From positions 1 through 32,296 of the forward strand of contig SHVR01000032.1 of NCBI GenBank assembly GCA_009694185.1: a stretch of 32,296 nucleotides of DNA. Direction: 5' to 3'. This document shows positions 1 to 210 of the stretch, in pieces (within the stretch, counting starts at the first letter, position 1; each line of letters starts with the position of its first letter). The stretch is from Alphaproteobacteria bacterium. Lineage in GTDB: Bacteria; Pseudomonadota; Alphaproteobacteria; SHVR01. The notes beneath the pieces are model-generated. The model made no database searches, had not been told where the DNA came from, and saw only the letters and a program-made list of their open reading frames with translations. The position numbers were made by a program, and so were the translations under genes.

Positions 1-6
1 TACCAG

Positions 7-36
7 GTCTCGATGATCGAAACCGATCATCGAGAC
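7..36. repeat. Perfect 13-bp inverted repeat, 4-nt loop
   Basis: Arm GTCTCGATGATCG at 7-19 is followed by the loop AAAC and its exact reverse complement at 24-36. It shares the CTCGATGA/TCATCGAG core with the hairpin at 112-142. There is no poly-T tail. Confidence 0.85.
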
Positions 37-111
37 GCCCTCAAACGCCGGGCGCGCGCTCCCAGCACTTGGCTTTCGCCGCATCGGCGGCGCGGCGCGG
101 TCGCGCCGGCC

Positions 112-142
112 AAGCCTCGATGAGTCAAGCTCATCGAGGCTT
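112..142. repeat. Perfect 13-bp inverted repeat, 5-nt loop
   Basis: Arm AAGCCTCGATGAG at 112-124 and its exact reverse complement at 130-142 flank the loop TCAAG. This is the second hairpin with the CTCGATGA/TCATCGAG core. Its left arm overlaps GCCAAG (109-114), which could instead pair with CTTGGC at 68-73, so two mutually exclusive folds are possible. Confidence 0.85.
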
Positions 143-180
143 AGTATTACCCCGCGTCAATTAGCAAGCCGCCCGGCAAC

Positions 181-210
181 TTGCTCGCCAGCCTGGCGAG
201 AGCCTAGCAA
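181..210. repeat. Bulged hairpin
   Basis: Outer arms TTGCT (181-185) and AGCAA (206-210) enclose the near-contiguous inverted repeat CTCGCCA-gcc-TGGCGAG (184-200), leaving a one-sided bulge. It lies about 130 nt before the diguanylate cyclase start. Function unknown. Confidence 0.6.

Follow-up and report, generated by a model that had tools for sequence, protein, structure and literature searches.

The first 146 bp of the window, by which we mean the whole 32,296-nucleotide stretch of alphaproteobacterial DNA under analysis, are very probably, judging from sequence comparison, a non-autonomous IS630-type mini-transposon (MITE) that has hairpins at both ends, targets 3 bp and contains a conserved, folded core. 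An earlier note had described a cluster of palindromes here, with two related 13-bp hairpins. These are present as perfect inverted repeats at 7-19/24-36 and 112-124/130-142, which have CTCGATGA/TCATCGAG in common and differ in their outer bases as claimed, and they are the two terminal inverted repeats of a single dispersed element. The window contains no other hairpin with arms of at least 12 (loop 3-10), and a 13-bp arm appeared in 0 of 3,000 dinucleotide shuffles of positions 1-210. Further inverted repeats lie within 76-120. Those at 163-185 (82%) and 184-200 (8-bp arms, 1-nt gap) fall outside the element, which ends at 146; the latter, CTCGCCAG-C-CTGGCGAG, stands upstream of a GGDEF gene and could be a regulator site. 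The features are as follows, pairs changed on both sides among 23 aligned copies being called double-changed.

1-146, + strand: whole putative mini-transposon, TACC...GTA (26 own-genome copies or fragments, boundaries, target duplications, covariance-model matches of sister copies)
1-30, + strand: left terminal repeat, like the IS630 end located 3' of the transposase gene (register match)
7-36, + strand: hairpin H1, 13-bp stem, loop AAAC (5 of 13 pairs double-changed)
37-46, + strand: conserved unpaired linker GCCCTCAAAC (in 23 sequences, most columns vary little or not at all)
47-73, + strand: hairpin HA, whose tandem G.U pairs are almost invariant; a variant 3' arm (CAGCA) weakens it in the window copy
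77-92, + strand: hairpin HB (3 of 6 pairs double-changed)
93-108, + strand: hairpin HC (2 of 6 pairs double-changed, 69.6% of cells paired)
109-145, + strand: hairpin H2 (perfect part 112-142), its base made by the right terminus (10 of 17 pairs double-changed)
117-146, - strand: right terminal repeat, like the IS630 end next to the transposase start (register match)
147-149, no strand: TTA, putative right half of the 3-bp target duplication (window sequence and the rule from sister copies)

Copies, termini and target duplications

The own genome contains the core palindrome 44 times. With positions 1-150 of the window as query, 26 distinct places were found there, 22 of which are 136-150 bp long and 90-100% identical, while the remaining four (on contigs C44, C46, C51 and C2) are fragments; four further rows of the search were self-complementary echoes and lie outside this count. 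The element is thus short, non-coding and multi-copy. For ten of the 26 copies, including that of the window, a contig end is no more than 8 bp away: the repeat interrupted the assembly, and the copy number is therefore a minimum. The window's contig starts at the first base of the element, and the left target duplication and left neighbour gene are therefore beyond it.

The terminal inverted repeats are TACCAGGTCTCGATGA and TACTAAGCCTCGATGA. Aligned copies have TACCAG...(A/G)GTA in common and no shared bases outside these termini, and identical triplets (TAA, TTA or TCA) flank 11 of 13 own copies. The comparison was extended over several genomes to 59 copies drawn from 102 covariance-model matches (full-length matches of higher score for which both flanks were available, together with G282, and without the weak or core-only matches). 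A direct 3-bp duplication was found in 32 of them, compared with 10.96 in shuffled pairing (p 5e-5), and in 22 of the 33 copies with intact termini, compared with 7.15; inverted equality of the triplets was rare (4 of 59). The flanking triplets are accordingly a 3-bp target duplication at T-N-A. In genome G042, where 43 long copies were scored, some copies stand head to tail with 3 bp between them.

Two kinds of variant were also observed. At L062 994-1141 and L101 1501-1648, both in G043, the left half is swapped for another long palindrome and the right half is retained, a mosaic end exchange. At L030 1501-1542 (G000:C2:2868-2909) there is a solo 42-bp palindrome in which H1 is closed directly by its own complement (TACCAG...CTGGTA); it has neither core nor H2, lies just past a stop codon and is flanked by TAA and TTA.

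IS630-type insertion sequences with related ends

At one locus of the own genome (L029 1501-1722, at the end of C51), 52 bp of the left end are fused with the 5' portion of a transposase gene of IS630 type. This fusion is a single copy, and the gene is truncated. Relatives of its transposase in other genomes belong to the IS630 family: NF033545 scores over the cut-off for the catalytic parts, and the Pfam domain DDE_3 marks the partner as carrying an IS630-type transposase, which in the copies read is encoded in two frames. Six IS630 elements with both ends were found, 1157-1179 bp long and with TACC...GGTA termini; a direct triplet flanks two of the six, and four are without a matching duplication. 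Genome G347 holds four IS630 copies of about 1200 bp, 99.8% identical and in four different surroundings, all four with target duplications (TCA, TTA, TAA and TCA), as well as a fifth copy, 87% identical.

The ends of these insertion sequences partially resemble those of the mini-transposon. Between the six IS elements and ten element ends, 10.39 of 24 positions match in register at nucleotides 7-30, compared with 6.12 (sd 0.75) after column permutation, and none of 2,000 permutations reached the observed match; swapped ends give 8.62, and in shifted registers the match drops from 0.43 to 0.21-0.32. The G347 copies alone, with borders set independently of the element, give 9.70 versus 5.84 permuted (3 of 5,000), but these ends discriminate poorly, with 9.20 when swapped. 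Autonomous relatives with the same ends, at this partial similarity, thus occur in other genomes; searches of the own genome (77% complete) and of the copy-rich G042, G043 and G080 turned up no intact autonomous IS630 element. Among 385 genomes, element and IS630-type transposase co-occur modestly, in 10 genomes versus 2.8 expected (p 1e-4), or in 5 (p 0.045) after removal of the five seed genomes of the search.

Compared with the mini-transposon, IS630-family insertion sequences (NF033545, DDE_3) agree in terminal TACC...GGTA, a 3-bp duplication and subterminal bases in register; they differ in being 1157-1200 bp long, in having a transposase gene and in ends that, as read, are not perfect palindromes. 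The IS630 family duplicates a TA dinucleotide, whereas both the element and the G347 insertion sequence have 3-bp T-N-A. Since IS1031 makes T-N-A duplications, IS5-type transposases (DUF4096) were tried as well, and an inverted-repeat script and the covariance model detected no MITE-like ends at 18 loci. Weak matches at two IS5-type loci were a core-like stretch (L211) and an H2-like hairpin (L220). The RUP elements of Streptococcus pneumoniae and the Correia elements of Neisseria are linked to IS630-type transposases and duplicate TA. The present element is like these MITEs in being small and gene-free, with terminal inverted repeats, many intergenic copies and a presumed IS630-type transposase, and it differs in its 3-bp T-N-A target, perfect hairpin ends, long multi-hairpin interior and alphaproteobacterial hosts.

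We infer mobilisation in trans. An IS630-family DDE transposase would bind the two ends (left about TACCA-N7-TGATCGnnACC, right about TACCAA-N14-GACTCAT), excise or copy the element and insert it at T-N-A triplets with a 3-bp duplication. The ends that the transposase binds would both have turned into palindromes (H1 and H2), so that a hairpin could form at each end, with the conserved folded core between them. Copies would survive mainly in intergenic positions just past stop codons, where they may do least harm.

The folded interior

Besides H1 and H2, the interior folds into three more hairpins (HA, HB and HC), with compensatory changes. The earlier note had held that both 13-bp stems are maintained and had proposed a covariance check in relatives; the check bears this out, since both hairpins contain double-changed pairs. 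The alignment comprised 23 copies picked for diversity, and L085, L086, L087 and the variant copies L062, L101 and L070, which are truncated or have a different left half, were left out. In the five-hairpin structure 23 of 54 pairs were changed on both sides; double-changed cells numbered 105, compared with 43.4 in shuffles, and covariation scored 0.266, compared with 0.127 shuffled; the aligned copies are kin, and the shuffle figures are not probabilities. Structures slid by 1-3 columns scored at most 0.076, in a control biased in favour of the true register because the structure was derived from one aligned sequence.

A conserved folded interior exceeds the needs of a passive MITE. It is possible, if rather doubtful, that the core is a selected module of RNA or single-stranded DNA, such as a 3' stabiliser of mRNA or a processing site, captured and spread by IS630 ends; this would be compatible with the IS630 mini-transposon reading. 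The compensatory changes argue for it, and the core CCCTCA...CTTGGCT with its hairpins is also present without transposon ends: among 84 distinct cores in the fetched loci, a TACCA-like left end is missing from 35 and both ends are missing from 16, but such core-only copies could be decayed MITEs. A stem of at least 8 pairs within 45 nt upstream of the core was found in 44 of 83 cases, versus 4-10 of 80-82 at control distances, and many of these stems are H1. On the + strand, G.U outnumbers A.C among the non-Watson-Crick cells by 397 to 98, with 170 of these cells coming from the almost invariant tandem G.U in HA. This excess hints at selection on + strand RNA, but is in part explained by the fixed termini and by one related group (G042). 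Gene context points the same way, many own copies starting within 20 bp of a stop codon: of 15 own copies for which both neighbour genes were found, 10 have convergent and 5 co-directional neighbours, and none lies between divergent genes or inside a gene, as called by a rough gene finder of our own and against chance levels (1/4 convergent, 1/2 facing) that are nominal and unmeasured. Against the module stands the weakened HA of the window copy, whose minimum-energy fold omits this hairpin because of the variant 3' arm. We therefore suggest only tentatively, from these comparative data, that the interior (the CCCTCA linker with HA, HB and HC) may be a hitherto undescribed module of structured RNA in Alphaproteobacteria, with the + strand as the one that is read and with selection acting on its fold. 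Such a module would stand alone and also be carried repeatedly between IS630-type ends turned hairpins.

Two loci contain more than one core. In the 16S-23S spacer of G342, between a tRNA and the 23S gene (L145 1548-1650), two core motifs stand 57 bp apart. At L163 1001-1253 (G305:C5) cores form a tandem array that repeats about every 115 bp, and hairpins are common to neighbouring units.

Other palindromic repeats, gene context and distribution

The earlier note had also raised a REP-like family. Its genome-wide motif count does reveal a dispersed repeat, of MITE type rather than REP. A REP/REPIN-type pair of palindromes moved by a Y1 (RAYT/IS200-like) transposase would account for dispersed intergenic palindromes in inverted pairs with hairpins at both ends, yet it is very unlikely. 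HUH transposition is not expected to leave 3-bp target duplications such as those found here, and termini and duplication are common to the element and IS630 elements. According to the available part of PMC3733652, CGTC-type repeats have 8-9 bp stems and an unpaired tag and are common in Alphaproteobacteria, often as inverted dimers. The CGTC and GTAG families described there resemble the element as intergenic palindromes; the element differs from the CGTC type in its 13-bp stems, TACC termini and target duplication (PMC3733652, as far as its available part goes). It contains no 8-9 bp stem of CGTC type carrying an unpaired tag. The RIMEs of rhizobia, reportedly described by Osteras in 1995, are said to be intergenic, dispersed, palindromic and about 110 bp long. 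The element is like them in the first three respects, in a comparison by description only, to which is added that the covariance model had no match on Sinorhizobium meliloti pSymB. RIMEs are mentioned in the available part of PMC2573895.

Pfam confirmed the GGDEF motif of the window's neighbour, the sole one among 42 flanking proteins, and nine other neighbours that were scanned have unrelated functions. The earlier note had proposed that CTTGGC (68-73) pairs with GCCAAG (109-114) in a switch-like leader of this cyclic di-GMP gene. The two segments are indeed present and complementary, but the helix they would form shows no covariation (0 of 6 pairs double-changed). Seven of the 23 sequences, all G042 rows, cannot form its pair 102-140; in these the HA pair 48-102 switches from C-G to G-C, so that the competing HA compensates. 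In Rfam scans, neither the element nor any of 30 related loci reached the threshold of a family; for the element, searched up to E 10, the best hit (E 2.8) was below all gathering scores, and no described riboswitch or cis-regulatory RNA family matched. A leader or switch RNA of the GGDEF gene, in which this helix and H2 would be alternative expression-controlling folds, is hardly credible: the complementarity, a strand that folds far better than shuffles (z -6.7) and a GGDEF start 194 bp downstream of the window copy speak for it, but the same 146 bp adjoin unrelated genes elsewhere, a GGDEF gene neighbours only 1 of 26 copies, and no promoter- or terminator-like site was found in 1-400. These results do not support the proposed leader, and the mini-transposon probably has no specific role for the GGDEF gene.

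A twister-sister ribozyme (RF02681) scored 29.4 bits, versus a gathering score of 34, at one of 30 loci, by chance or as a very distant relative. This near-match lies on the reverse strand of a core-only copy beside a tRNA gene (L156 1013-1099, G243), and the C-A cleavage step of this ribozyme is absent from its alignment; the candidate was dropped because it occurred at a single locus and without the cleavage dinucleotide.

Relatives at Blast level were found in 10 of 58 genomes (the own genome and 57 others, all of the same class), G042 among them, and in two metagenome-assembled genomes, one from Lake Baikal and the other labelled Rhizobium sp. Q54. Among 385 alphaproteobacterial genomes sampled, the covariance model detected the element in 33, own included, and in many of these all 8 candidates scored per genome matched. 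Plasmid matches came from Methylobacterium bullatum (4) and Niveispirillum cyanobacteriorum (16). The window's own copy was unmatched in plasmid, phage and viral collections, the viral scan being for one exact pattern only. In a sample of the phylum 14 of 398 genomes matched, all of the same class; the share of other classes among the 398 is not given, and a restriction to Alphaproteobacteria is not proven. Neither the core sequence nor IS630 MITEs in Alphaproteobacteria were found described in the open-licence literature, as far as the available parts of the sources go. The element is ordinary in kind, and its details are new as far as that search reaches.

What appeared to be a regulatory leader thus becomes a copy of a mobile element, which accounts for many contigs of its genome ending there. 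The mini-transposon reading would tie widespread palindromic repeats of Alphaproteobacteria to a concrete group of transposases with an atypical 3-bp target, and would make their mobility testable. It also raises the question of what keeps the interior fold conserved from genus to genus, whether or not transposon ends are present.
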